From Buchnera aphidicola (Cinara curvipes) (GTDB lineage Bacteria; Pseudomonadota; Gammaproteobacteria; Enterobacterales; Enterobacteriaceae): a DNA stretch of 64,000 nucleotides. The notes beneath the pieces are model-generated. The model was not told where the DNA came from, did no database searches, and worked only from the letters and a program-made list of their open reading frames with translations. Shown piece by piece: positions 12,164-54,130 of the stretch. Position numbers and translations under genes: made by a program. How positions within the stretch are numbered: position 1 is the first letter of the stretch; the number at the start of each line of letters is the position of its first letter. The stretch lies in contig NZ_LR217710.1 in the NCBI RefSeq assembly GCF_900698915.1, positions 248,001 through 312,000 on the forward strand. Reading direction: 5' to 3'.

Positions 12164-12877
12164 ATGAACAATACTATACATCCAATTATTACATTTACTG
12201 ATATACATCTACTTCCAGATAATACTGAAATAAAAAAAAAAACAGATACTGTCAAAACAGATTTACAAATAAAAAATGTATATAATATTAAAATAAATTC
12301 TGATAATAAAAAAATAATAAAAAAACAAGATATAGCATCAGATACTATTCACATTAAACCATTACAAGAAAATAAAACTATAAAAGAAAATGATAATCCA
12401 GAAATAGGTTTTTTCTCTATTTTAGATGATGAAGGATGTGAAGGATTTTTAATAGAAGGACGTATAAGAATAAATAAAAATCGTGAAGTAACAATGGATG
12501 GTTATCCTTTATTAAATATTAAAGATACAGTTATTAAAGTACCAGAAAATAAAAAAATACTTGTTAAATCTGAAGGTTTAATTGTAATAAAAGAAAATGA
12601 TGATCAAAAAACAAATAAACCGACAGTGTTAGGACAATTAAAATTTATTTCATTAAATAAAAATGATGTTATAGCACGTAAATATAATAAAGTATATGAT
12701 TTAAATGATTTAGGTTTAGAAAAATACAAACAAAATGAATTAGATATTAAATATCAATTTTTATCTAACAAAGAAATACTTGAAAATAATGAAAAAGCCA
12801 CCAGGAGTTTAATTAAAAAAATAAATTTAATTAGATCTTATGAATTTAATTCATTACCAAAATTAAAGAAAAATTAA
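12164..12877 (+). CDS. flgF: Flagellar basal-body rod protein FlgF, remodelled N-terminus
   Basis: Residues from about 90 onward follow E. coli FlgF. The block G-F-F-S-I-L-D-D-E-G aligns with W-L-A-V-Q-T-A-D-G-S, V-T-M-D-G-Y-P-L-L with L-T-I-Q-G-H-P-V-I, and V-L-G-Q-L-K-F-I-S with P-V-G-R-L-K-L-V-K. A C-terminal I-N-L-I-R-S-Y-E-F helix aligns with M-I-A-S-A-R-R-F-E. The first 85 residues are lysine- and asparagine-rich and do not resemble the conserved N-terminal rod helix (normally with an N-L-A-N-A-x-T-P-G-F motif). Length 237 against 251. The ATG at 12164 has GAGG six bases upstream; the GTG at 12152 overlaps that site. FlgF rather than FlgG because of the spacing insert before V-L-G-Q-L. 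Function as a rod subunit is uncertain. Confidence 0.75.
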   Translation: MNNTIHPIITFTDIHLLPDNTEIKKKTDTVKTDLQIKNVYNIKINSDNKKIIKKQDIASDTIHIKPLQENKTIKENDNPEIGFFSILDDEGCEGFLIEGRIRINKNREVTMDGYPLLNIKDTVIKVPENKKILVKSEGLIVIKENDDQKTNKPTVLGQLKFISLNKNDVIARKYNKVYDLNDLGLEKYKQNELDIKYQFLSNKEILENNEKATRSLIKKINLIRSYEFNSLPKLKKN

Positions 12878-13180: not shown

Positions 13181-13850
13181 ATGTTAAAATCATTTTATAA
13201 GATACTTAAAAGTATTATACTTATAATACTAATAATTTCTATTATAAATAATAATGTCTTTTCATGTAAGAAAATAATAAATAAAAAAATTTTTTTAAAA
13301 CCCATTCAGATAATTAAAAAAAAACAAAAAAAAAAAAAATAATTATTCATCTTGGTTTACAAATTATAAAAATTATAAAATCGGAGATAATATTACTATT
13401 TTCTTTAATGAAAAAAATAATATTAATTATAATATAAAAAAGTATATAATTAGAAAATCATATTATATATATAATTTTAAATTGTTTATTATTAAAAAAA
13501 TAAATACATATATTGGAAATATAGAAAAAATAAAGAAATTAATTAATAAAAAAAAATTTTATATAAAAAAAAATATAAATTTAAAATTATCAGTTAGAGT
13601 AGTGGCAATATTAAAAAATAAATATTTAAAAATTTTAGGTGAAAAAAATTTTTTTATTAATAATCATATAGAAAAAATAAAATTCTATGGAATAATTAAT
13701 CCTAAAAAAATTAATTTAAATAATTCAATAAATTCTTCTAAAATTTCTAATTTTAAAATTAAATATTCAAATCAAAATTTCAAAAAAAACATTTTTTTTT
13801 ACTTAAAAAAAATATTTTATTTTTTAAAATTAAATATATATACTATTTAA
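13181..13850 (+). pseudogene. flgH: Flagellar L-ring lipoprotein FlgH, frameshifted in a poly(A) run
   Basis: The first frame starts with ATG at 13181 and encodes a lipoprotein signal peptide: a basic start, a hydrophobic core and a lipobox-like N-V-F-S-C. It stops at 13340-13342, directly after a run of 14 A (13326-13339). One base on, the other frame continues without stop to 13850 and matches FlgH: Y-K-I-G-D-N-I-T-I with N-I-G-D-T-L-T-I, then L-K-I-L-G-E-K with L-H-V-V-G-E-K, F-Y-G-I-I-N-P with F-S-G-V-V-N-P, and a final F-Y-F-L-K-L-N. Removing one A from the run, or adding two, restores a 222-residue protein (E. coli 232). RNA polymerase slippage on the run could do this, so the gene may still be expressed. 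FlgH forms the outer-membrane ring of the basal body. The TTG at 13482 is not a real start. Confidence 0.82.
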
Positions 13851-13884: not shown

Positions 13885-14682
13885 ATGAAAATTATACCAA
13901 AATTTAAATATATAATTATTATTCTTTATATTTTATTAAATAATAAATCTTTAATATCTGCAAAAAAAATTTATAATTTAATAAATATTGTAGGAATTCA
14001 AGATACTCAACTTATTGGATATGGTCTAGTGGTTGGTTTAAATGGTACAGGCGATACAACCGCTCAAATTCCCTTTACATATCAATCATTAAATAATATG
14101 TTAATAAAATTTGGAATTTATACTAAAAATAGTCAAAATATACAAACAAAAAATACAGCTGCAGTTATAGTAACTACTACTATATCACCATTAAATTATA
14201 TTGGACAAAAAATTGATATTACAGTTTCTTCCATTGGAAATGCCAGTAATTTAAATGGAGGAACATTAATAATGACTCCATTAATGGGTATAGATAAGAA
14301 AACTTATGCTATTGCTCAAGGTAATATACCAACGGATTTGCAAGAAAAAAGAATGTACTTTAAAAAAAGTAGTAAAGATTTATTAAATAGAAAGAAAATA
14401 ATTCATGGAGCAATTATTAAAAAATCTACTTCTAATAAATTTGATAAATATCATCGTGGAATTATAATTTTAAAATCTATAAGAAATAATTGGTCTTTAT
14501 TAAAAAATATACGTGATACTATTAATATGTATTATTATAATATTGCAACTATTATTGATTTTAATACTATACAATTAAATGTACCAAAAAATAAAATTTT
14601 ACAAAATAAAATTTTATTTCATATATTTAATATAGACATAACATCTAAAAAAAATATACATAAAAAAAAATATAATATATAA
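13885..14682 (+). CDS. flgI: Flagellar P-ring protein FlgI, C-terminally truncated
   Basis: Periplasmic P-ring subunit around the flagellar rod. It has an N-terminal signal peptide (cleavage near S-A, residue about 26), then the family core: I-G-Y-G-L-V-V-G-L-N-G-T-G-D, a T-Y-Q-S-L-N-N-M-L block, S-S-I-G-N-A-S-N-L-N-G-G-T-L and Y-A-I-A-Q-G-N. These align closely with E. coli FlgI up to about residue 260. At 265 residues it lacks about the last 100 of the usual 365, including the two conserved cysteine positions. rluC starts only 42 bases downstream, so the tail is deleted, not frameshifted. It follows flgH by 34 bases. Whether the short form can make a ring is unknown. Confidence 0.9.
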   Translation: MKIIPKFKYIIIILYILLNNKSLISAKKIYNLINIVGIQDTQLIGYGLVVGLNGTGDTTAQIPFTYQSLNNMLIKFGIYTKNSQNIQTKNTAAVIVTTTISPLNYIGQKIDITVSSIGNASNLNGGTLIMTPLMGIDKKTYAIAQGNIPTDLQEKRMYFKKSSKDLLNRKKIIHGAIIKKSTSNKFDKYHRGIIILKSIRNNWSLLKNIRDTINMYYYNIATIIDFNTIQLNVPKNKILQNKILFHIFNIDITSKKNIHKKKYNI

Positions 14683-14724: not shown

Positions 14725-15671
14725 ATGAATAATAAAGAATTATTAAAAAAATCAATTATAATACAAAAAAATATGTCAGGTCAAAGAATTGATAATTTTT
14801 TATTTAAAAATTTTAAAAAATTACCAAAAAGTATGATATATCGTAGCATAAGAATAGGAAAAATAAAAATAAATAAAAAAAAAACAAAACCATTTTATAA
14901 ACTTAAAATAAACGATTGTATTACAACATATTCTATTAAAATAGATGTAAAAAAAAAAAAATTCATTTAAAAAAATCAATAATTAATTTATTTCTAAAAA
15001 ACATATTGCTTGAAGACAAGTATTTAATTATTTTTAACAAACCATATGGATTTGCAGTGCATGGAGGTAGTGGAATTAATTATGGAGTAATAGAAATATT
15101 TCGAAAGATTCGCCAGGAATTAACATTTTTAGAACTCGTACATCGCATTGATAAGGATACTTCTGGTATACTAATTCTTGCAAAAAAACGTTCTATTTTA
15201 AAAAAAATGCATGAAAATTTACGTAAAAAAAAAATATATAAAGAATATTTAGCATTAATACATGGCCATTGGTCTAATAAAAATAAAATAATTAATTTAC
15301 CTTTATTAAAAAGAAAAGATGTTACAAAAAAAAAAAAAGTATATGTACATGAAAATGGAAAACCTTCACAAACAAAATTTAAAGTAAAAAAATATTTTAA
15401 TAATACTACTTTAATATCAGTTATACCTGTTACCGGAAGAACTCATCAAATTAGGGTACATACTTCACAATTCGGACACCCTATTGTTTTTGATAAAAAA
15501 TACGGAAATATAAAACAAGAAAAAAAATATATATTAAAAAGAAATAACAGATTATTACTACATTCATATAAAATTTCTTTTATCCATCCAAAAGAAAAAA
15601 CAAAAATTTTTATAACAGCTCCATTAGACAAAAAGTTTAAATATTGCTTGAAATATTTTTCAAAAAAATAA
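14725..15671 (+). pseudogene. rluC: 23S rRNA pseudouridine synthase RluC, frameshifted in a poly(A) run
   Basis: The first 81 codons (14725-14970) give the S4 RNA-binding domain: G-Q-R-I-D-N-F-L and K-S-M-I-Y-R, as in E. coli RluC. A 13-A run at 14949-14961 then shifts the frame. From there the other frame reads I-H-L-K-K-S-I-I-N-L-F-L-K-N-I-L-L-E-D-K, which aligns with the E. coli linker, and continues through the catalytic H-R-I-D-K-D-T-S-G block and the T-G-R-T-H-Q-I-R-V-H motif to 15671. Adding one A (or removing two) restores a 315-residue enzyme (E. coli 319). RluC makes pseudouridine at 955, 2504 and 2580 of 23S rRNA. The two halves may be rejoined by transcriptional slippage. rpmF follows, as in enterobacteria. 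Confidence 0.85.
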
Positions 15672-15902: not shown

Positions 15903-16077
15903 AAACTAAAAATTATATAAAAATTATATTTTTGTATAAAAAATATTTTTCTTAAAATATTTTTATAACTATAAACATTTAAAATTATTAAATTAAAATT
16001 ATATATATAATAAAAATATTTTTCTATATACTATGTAAGTAGTAGTGTATAGAATAAAAGAGGTTAAATTATATTTT

Positions 16078-17016
16078 ATGAAAAATTTTTCAGTAATTTT
16101 TCCTGGATATGGATTATATAATATAGAATTTTTAAAGTTATTTTCAAAAAAATATCATATAGTTCGAAAAACATTTAAAGAAGCATCTGATATACTAAAC
16201 TATAATGTATATAATAGTTTTTTTAAAAAAAAAAATAATTTTACTTTTCATAATAAAAATATATATTTACTAACATTTATTTCTTCAGTAGCTATATATA
16301 GAATTTTAGAAAAAAAAATAAACATTCAACCAAATATAATGTCTGGACATAGTATAGGTCAATATTCTGCTTTAGTTTGTAATAAAAATATCTTATTTGA
16401 AGAAGCAATTAATATTATTAAAATACGTAATAAAATTATGTTAGAAGCGGTAAAAAATACTCGAGTATTAACATTAGTAGTTCTTGGATTAAGTTATAAT
16501 CTTATTAAAAAAACTTGTTTATTAATTTCTAATAAAAAAAAAGTATTTATTTCTATTATTAACTCAAAAAAACAAATAGTTATTACTGGAAATTATTCCA
16601 CAGTATATTCTGCCGGTTTAATATTTAAAAAAAAGTTTTATGCCAAAATAATTCGATTACCAATGTCAATTGCATCTCATTGTTTATTAATGAAAAATTA
16701 TAAAGAACAATTTTCTTATTATTTAAAAAAAATAAAAATATTTACAGGTAAATATCCTGTAATTAGTAATCATAATGCAAAAATTATTTTATCTAAAAAA
16801 GAAATATATTCTTCATTAATAAAACAAATATATAAAAAAGTACAATGGAATAAAAGCATAAAAAAAATTATCTCTATGGGAATAAATATTTTTATCGAAG
16901 TAGGACCAGGTAATATATTAACTAATTTAAATAAAGAAAATAAAAATATATCTTCTTACTCAACAAATGAGTATAAAAAATTGTTATTAGTTATGGATAT
17001 AATAAAAAAATTATGA
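16078..17016 (+). CDS. fabD: Malonyl-CoA:ACP transacylase FabD
   Basis: Loads malonyl groups from CoA onto acyl carrier protein for type II fatty acid synthesis. Starting at the ATG at 16078 the protein has 312 residues and begins K-N-F-S-V-I-F-P-G, in register with A-F-V-F-P-G of E. coli. The nucleophile elbow G-H-S-I-G then falls at Ser92, exactly as in E. coli, and the catalytic histidine lies in I-A-S-H. The GTG at 16045 would add 11 residues without homologues; AGAGG at 16059-16063 is rather far (14 bases) from the ATG. The end overlaps fabG by four bases (ATGA), which couples the two. Confidence 0.95.
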   Translation: MKNFSVIFPGYGLYNIEFLKLFSKKYHIVRKTFKEASDILNYNVYNSFFKKKNNFTFHNKNIYLLTFISSVAIYRILEKKINIQPNIMSGHSIGQYSALVCNKNILFEEAINIIKIRNKIMLEAVKNTRVLTLVVLGLSYNLIKKTCLLISNKKKVFISIINSKKQIVITGNYSTVYSAGLIFKKKFYAKIIRLPMSIASHCLLMKNYKEQFSYYLKKIKIFTGKYPVISNHNAKIILSKKEIYSSLIKQIYKKVQWNKSIKKIISMGINIFIEVGPGNILTNLNKENKNISSYSTNEYKKLLLVMDIIKKL

Positions 17017-53165: not shown

Positions 53166-54130
53166 CTATTTCATATCTTCTAAATATAAAAAATTAATTA
53201 ATTGTATCATATCTATTGGAGGAGTAACTAGCCAAATTTTTTTTTTATTAATAATAGGATGAACAAAACCTAACATTCTAGAATGCAATGCAGGTCTAGA
53301 AAATTTCAAAAAAAATTTATACATTTTTTTAGAAATACCAAAAAAATTTAACTTTACACCTTTATTATATATTTTATCACCAAATATGGGATGTAAAATA
53401 GAAGATAAATGTACTCTAATTTGATGCATTCTACCTGTTTTTAATTGTATACGAATATATGTATAATTTCTAAAAATTGTCATAACTTTATAATAAGTTA
53501 AAGCTGATTTTCCGCCAATACCTACTGTCATTATAGTTCTACGATAAATATTTCTTTTAATAGGATAGTTAATAAAACCATCTTGTTCAATTCTACCAAT
53601 AACAATAGCATCATATTCTTTTATCACTTCTCTTTTTTTAAATAAAGAAATTAGATAATTATATGAAAATATTGTTTTTGCTACAACTAATAAACCAGAA
53701 GTATTTCGATCTAATCGATGTACAATACCAGCCCTGGGTAAAGTTAAATTATTTTTATAATGATAAATTAAAGCATTAAATAATGTGCCTGAAGTATTTC
53801 CATAACCTAAATGTATAACAAAATTAAATGGTTTATTAATAATTAATAATTCAGAATCTTCAAAAATAATATTTAAAAATATATTTTCTTTTTTTATTTT
53901 AATAAAATTAAATTCTTTTTTTATATTAATAGAAATTTTGTCTTTAAAAAAAATTTTTTTTTTGGAATAGTAGTAATATTATTATTTACTGTAACATATC
54001 CTGATAAAATCCATTTTTTTATACAAGAACGAGAAACTGAAGAAGTTAATTTTACTAATATTTTATCTAATCTATAGGACTGTAATTTTAGATTAGGAAC
54101 TATAAAATTGAATTTTGCTTTATTATTCAT
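53166..54130 (-). pseudogene. rluD: 23S rRNA pseudouridine synthase RluD, frameshifted in a homopolymer
   Basis: From ATG 54130 the S4 domain reads Y-R-L-D-K-I-L-V-K-L and I-K-K-W-I-L-S-G-Y-V-T-V-N as in E. coli RluD. It then goes out of frame at an A10-T8 stretch (minus strand; 53946-53963) and stops at 53921. In the other frame D-K-I-S-I-N-I-K-K-E-F continues through L-L-I-I-N-K-P, the catalytic H-R-L-D-R-N-T-S-G and T-G-R-M-H-Q-I-R-V-H, to 53166. One extra base in the homopolymer (or two fewer) restores about 320 residues. RluD makes the highly conserved pseudouridines 1911, 1915 and 1917 in helix 69. The M-I-K-E-Y start near 53627 is internal, not a real start. Confidence 0.85.

Follow-up and report, generated by a model that had tools for sequence, protein, structure and literature searches.

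Genes whose reading frame is broken at a poly(A) tract have been described in Buchnera and Blochmannia (Tamas et al. 2008 and Wernegreen et al. 2010, as cited in PMC3017870, PMC3164680 and PMC5009743), and slippage on the A runs of symbionts is credited with 12-50% corrected transcripts (Tamas 2008, as summarised in PMC5009743). When transcription errors were surveyed across the genome in Buchnera, homopolymer insertions (151 of 157 insertions), mostly of a single base, were the commonest indel by count, and the portion of that study available to us records no frame-restoring error (Traverse and Ochman 2017, PMC5574713). The statement in the original prediction that slippage has been reported in Buchnera and Blochmannia is therefore borne out through the papers that cite Tamas 2008, but it has to be set against the lack of a restored frame in the available portion of PMC5574713. 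The split flgH gene considered here is ordinary in kind, as A-run frameshifts are already known in such symbionts. Like the poly(A) genes of Tamas and Wernegreen, to the extent that the citing papers describe them, it has a length change in one long A run, two open halves and an otherwise conserved sequence, and it comes from the same host group; unlike them, its phase is not kept between two sister species.

Two other described systems are close to this material. Programmed -1 frameshifting or transcriptional slippage of the dnaX type is resembled by rluD and rluC, which keep a -1 phase at an A run across species; unlike the dnaX type, rluD has no conserved downstream structure, and the shift would join a gene instead of adding a second product. 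The L-ring FlgH of the Buchnera basal body, as far as it is described in the accessible part of PMC8109811, shares with our FlgH the PF02107 domain and the synteny with flgI, and differs from it in that the present species has no detected Lgt, LspA or rod domains, a short FlgI and a split frame.

The window analysed here is a stretch of 64,000 nucleotides from a Cinara-type Buchnera genome of 445 kb in three contigs; a 2-kb piece of the leu plasmid of this species shares 81% identity with its counterpart in Buchnera aphidicola BCc (Cinara cedri). The comparison set consisted of 16 Buchnera genomes, the window species included, among which G007 is the nearest to it. Twelve genomes make up the ingroup, the other four being G008, G010, G013 and G014, and an unrooted tree of the rluC and rluD catalytic halves sets the ingroup apart from these four with a support of 100, one deep node having a support of 49. 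G010 was not relied on where the absence of a gene was at issue, as its FlhA match falls within an unusual open frame of 3137 residues; this match is located near position 190665 of contig C1 in that genome, and the sequence there is possibly masked. Split genes were screened for by comparing the window with the genes of five relatives, using ORFs of at least 90 residues and strong matches only, a procedure that can miss short upstream pieces and did not flag flgH.

All flgH features lie on the forward strand. The signal-peptide or N-terminal frame (13181..13325) opens with the ATG at 13181 and begins MLKSFYKILKSIILIILIISIINNNVFSC, a basic, hydrophobic start resembling a signal peptide, and its stop comes just past an A run. 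This run, an A14 at 13326..13339 with A9-C directly before it, is the site of the frame change, and the mature FlgH frame at 13341..13850 comprises 169 open codons and a stop ending at 13850. The profile match of the mature frame to PF02107 reaches 77 bits at a cut-off of 27, which places it in the FlgH family, and it is shifted by +1 from the frame of the signal peptide (13341-13181 = 160). Thus, the original prediction that two FlgH frames, one base apart, meet at this run and that the second stays open for about 510 bases with FlgH character was confirmed. The gene contains this one frame change, in a long A run, without another lesion, and the arrangement is not due to chance, because G006 and other genomes carry the gene as one open frame. 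In the window species, no ATG, GTG or TTG precedes the conserved SWF motif of the mature frame, the first one in frame being a TTG at 13482, 44 residues past the motif; the first such codon of G007 lies 83 residues past it. FlgH, if it is made, requires the joining of both frames.

The flgH gene of G007 has its break in this run too, there 16 A long, with the mature frame in -1 phase, while G006 has the signal and mature parts in a single open frame. Counted by hand between fixed flanks, the tract measures 24 bases in the window species, 25 in G007 and 26 in G006. With one species at +1, one at -1 and one in frame, the phase of the break is not conserved among relatives, and since it differs between the sisters, the present breaks may be young; the original wording of a dead gene "of this age" consequently has no basis. 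FlgH scored above the cut-off in 11 of the 16 genomes, two others have weak pieces with stops, and three have no match. As flgH is decayed or undetected in five of the 16 and the rod domain PF00460 is undetected in 13, loss is a live trend. A family-wide search for FlgH gave a match in 289 of 392, with loci given only for the best matches.

The mature part of flgH was compared by pairwise maximum likelihood with a likelihood ratio test against an omega of 1, and NG86 counting served as a second method. As the original prediction would have it, the second-frame segment does not evolve neutrally against a related strain: between the window species and G007, both broken, the 163 codons compared have an omega of 0.230 (p=0.0011 against 1), a value compatible with old as well as recent breaks. 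The intact pair G005-G003 gives 0.243. By NG86 the values are 0.234 and 0.268 for these two pairs and up to 0.42 for others, and a codon-model grid over the flgH of seven genomes, intact ones included, is best at an omega near 0.2. The signal part of the sister pair, with 47 codons, has an omega of 0.60 and is indistinguishable from 1 (p=0.52). For the same pair, the neighbouring flgI and flgF-like ORF have values of 0.221 and 0.188, respectively, and the 56 ORFs compared span 0.05 to 0.88, some of them being spurious opposite-strand frames.

A single indel distinguishes the window species from G007 within 13341-13810: the A run at about 13804-13811, in the tail, is A8 in the former and A7 in the latter, a second A-run length change that alters the FlgH tail of G007. 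By comparison, two nearby intergenic stretches with 989 aligned bases contain 12 indel events, of which those of 69 and 58 bases are perhaps alignment artefacts. In simulations of a shared ancestral neutral break, both mature frames remained clean with a probability of 0.0002-0.1, depending on the calibration; when neutral breaks arose separately in the two species, each at a random time, the probability was 0.05-0.35, again by calibration. The simulations thus weaken the open frame as proof of function. The codon comparisons indicate that selection acted on mature flgH during much of the divergence of the two species, and the breaks themselves may be young. The original claim that the mature protein is under selection hence retains the omega of 0.23 between two broken species, but is weaker than it was stated, given the simulated range for independent breaks and a phase that is not kept.

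In addition, a complete lipoprotein had been read across the two sides of the break, and this part of the earlier reading has to be given up. A search that found both Lgt and LspA in E. coli found Lgt in none of the 16 Buchnera genomes and LspA in one of them, which is not the window species. Among seven ingroup FlgH sequences, the putative lipobox Cys is a Cys in the window species, G007 and G005 and a Tyr in G006, G009, G011 and G003. With neither Lgt nor LspA detected in the window species and Tyr in place of Cys in four of the seven, lipidation by the known route is unlikely, and FlgH as a lipoprotein was rejected.

Upstream of flgH, the forward-strand ORF at 12164..12877 is FlgF-like: it matches the D1 domain weakly, at a score under the Pfam cut-off, and its best matches are FlgF of G014, G008 and G010; rod end domains were not detected in it. 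The FlgF-like ORF was found in all eight other ingroup genomes examined (G007, G006, G009, G011, G005, G003, G001 and G012). It is kept even in G001 and G012, where flgH and flgI have decayed. Downstream, flgI (13885..14682, forward strand) is C-terminally short, matching positions 1-229 of a 343-position profile, and in the window species the next gene follows too closely for the remainder to fit. A FlgI match is present in 13 genomes, ending at profile position 227-246 in 10 of them; G014 has the full length, and two have fragments. FliF was matched in 15 of the 16 genomes and FlhA in all 16. The rod domains PF00460 and PF06429, found in three and four of the 16 genomes, respectively, were both undetected in the window species, so that no rod was detected there for FlgH to surround: proteins with Flg_bb_rod and Flg_bbr_C were unmatched and only the FlgF-like ORF is present. 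FliE was detected in all seven ingroup genomes with FlgH above the cut-off and in none of the five without it, although FliE is short, the match in G011 falls below the curated cut-off and weak FliE members may be missed. G010, outside the ingroup, is an exception to this pairing, having FlgH with FliE and FliF unmatched. That FlgH and FliE are retained or lost together in the ingroup favours FlgH still having a use in the window species.

Two further genes of the window, rluC and rluD, which encode 23S rRNA pseudouridine synthases, have breaks of the same kind. On the forward strand, the rluC N-terminal half (14725..14970), which we take to be the S4 domain, meets an A13 run at 14949..14961, and the catalytic half follows in the -1 frame at 14962..15671; both halves were placed by comparison with relatives. 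On the reverse strand, the rluD N-terminal half (53921..54130), presumably also an S4 domain, contains an A10 run (53954..53963; CC-A10-T8 on the coding strand), and the catalytic half, with its HRLDRNTSG motif, lies in the -1 frame at 53166..53953. The two halves of rluD stand in the -1 relation in 14 of the 16 genomes, namely all 12 of the ingroup, G008 and G014, and are in frame in G013 and G010. The coding strand at the break reads CC-A10-T throughout the 12 ingroup genomes, with A9G in G012, and the overlap of the open frames holds one run of at least eight A (A10 or A9) in 13 of the 14 split genomes, a count that covers all but G014. As to rluC, 10 of the 12 ingroup genomes show the -1 relation, at runs of 11 to 15 A, as does G008; the gene is in frame in G009, G004, G013, G010 and G014. 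The frameshift is therefore conserved among relatives in rluD and rluC, which is not the case in flgH, and the same phase in so many assemblies makes a sequencing error unlikely for these two genes.

Both halves of each gene are under purifying selection. Omega is 0.253 for the N half and 0.132 for the C half of rluD (12 genomes), and 0.111 and 0.106 for those of rluC (10 broken genomes), with likelihoods far better than at an omega of 1. The rluD catalytic frame of the window species has its first ATG, GTG or TTG 31 codons past the start of the HRLDRNTSG motif, and no other canonical route to the catalytic motif was found. The same count in the 10 other ingroup genomes in which the motif was found (G012 being outside this count) places a start 1-16 codons before the motif in G007, G009, G002 and G015 and 34-70 codons before it in the others; broken rluC frames mostly have a start before the motif as well. 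Such starts mean that separate translation of the catalytic half may occur in those species. For rluD, RNAalifold of 12 sequences gave no conserved stem-loop or other structure behind the run (0.0 kcal/mol). In the literature searched, as far as its text was accessible, no description of a frameshifted rluC or rluD in Cinara Buchnera was found; three homopolymeric frameshifts were counted in BCc in the part of Degnan 2011 (PMC3164680) available, and one of them could be rluD. The rluC and rluD breaks are better supported examples than flgH. We suggest, tentatively, that rluD in 14 of the 16 genomes and rluC in most may be made by way of a constant -1 frameshift on an A run, so that rRNA modification would depend on slippage, with the phase kept through the radiation, while flgH would be a younger case of flickering phase within a FliF-FliE-FlgI-FlgH remnant that has no detectable rod.

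On balance, we lean towards the reading that flgH is a real gene, split by a change in A-run length and probably still expressed at a low level through polymerase slippage. A length change in the run between the signal peptide and the mature domain would have split the gene; RNA polymerase would slip on the A14 run, a minority of transcripts receiving the length that joins the frames; and the joined FlgH would be exported and placed in the remaining basal body of FliF, FliE, the FlgF-like protein, FlgI and FlgH. We infer that slippage occurs, that FlgH is produced and exported, and that it sits in the basal body. The purifying selection on the mature domain suggests that some FlgH protein is probably made, and the frame-conserved rluC and rluD breaks of the same kind in the same window support the proposal. 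Counting against it, the phase in the window species needs the loss of one base or the gain of two: a one-base insertion would suit flgH of G007, rluC and rluD but would not suit flgH of the window species. Also against it are the differing phases of the sisters, the signal part without detectable constraint, the altered FlgH tail of G007, the loss of flgH and rod domains among relatives and the lack of a restored frame in PMC5574713. Ribosomal frameshifting might join the frames in place of polymerase slippage. The rluD site, with its A10 (A9G in G012, which contains a heptamer of the A-AAA-AAG type), needs a shift of -1, and the same shift suits flgH of G007; flgH of the window species, however, needs +1, and a conserved structure behind the rluD run is absent, so that we hold this explanation to be quite improbable. 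Still less credit, indeed very little, is given to separate translation of the part behind the break from an internal start, in flgH as well as in rluC and rluD. The in-frame TTG at 13482, a start 22 codons into the rluC catalytic frame of the window species with the motif at 67, and a start before the rluD motif in all 10 of the counted ingroup genomes, plus G014 and G008, would allow it; yet an own start for the mature domain of FlgH is unlikely when the first candidate codon falls past SWF in both sisters and the product would be without a signal peptide and the conserved N-terminal part. In addition, rluD of the window species offers no ATG, GTG or TTG before the motif, and purifying selection acts on the rluC and rluD N halves as well.

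The alternative that flgH broke recently and independently in both sisters, and is now disappearing with a low omega that dates from its intact period, deserves more weight than these, and we still consider it rather unlikely. The differing phases, a flgH decayed or undetected in five of the 16 genomes, a PF00460 undetected in 13, and the 0.05-0.35 probability of finding both mature frames undamaged after neutral breaks agree with it, but it requires two recent events at one site, and FlgI and FliE matches persist in both species; a single older neutral break in a shared ancestor would leave both frames clean with a probability of only 0.0002-0.1. It could also be that the lengths A14 and A16 were miscalled and flgH is intact in both species, which we regard as improbable. 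The flgH runs are among the longest, two of the nine window runs of at least 12 sit at breaks, and published Cinara symbiont genomes were made from PCR-amplified Illumina libraries according to the part of PMC6908640 available, a set to which the genome of the window species may not belong. However, the other seven of the nine, two further A14 runs among them, fall within unbroken frames, and a miscall would be needed at one site in two assemblies. The window has 118 A/T runs of at least nine, 107 of them genic; 102 of the 107 coding runs and eight of the 11 noncoding runs are equal in length in the window species and G007, and three of the five genic runs that differ are at gene ends. A general homopolymer assembly error in the window is thus unlikely on these counts, and an error at the flgH run itself is possible. 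The fabD gene of G007 (L014/L015), the counterpart of 16045-17016 in the window, appears split at an A run two bases longer than that of the window species, where the gene is open.

The A-run breaks of this window bear on a dispute in print, in which long A runs are held either to kill genes of AT-rich symbionts or to be routinely read across (PMC5574713 vs PMC5009743, as far as the accessible parts of both papers state it). The rluD gene of the window species is a clean case for this question, as its A10 is conserved across species and its catalytic motif has no canonical start ahead of it; an active enzyme there would require the frame to change at some step of expression. A further case is flgH, whose phase is no longer the same in the two sister species. 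In addition, the joint fate of FlgH and FliE in genomes without detectable rod domains bears on the role of the basal body in Buchnera.
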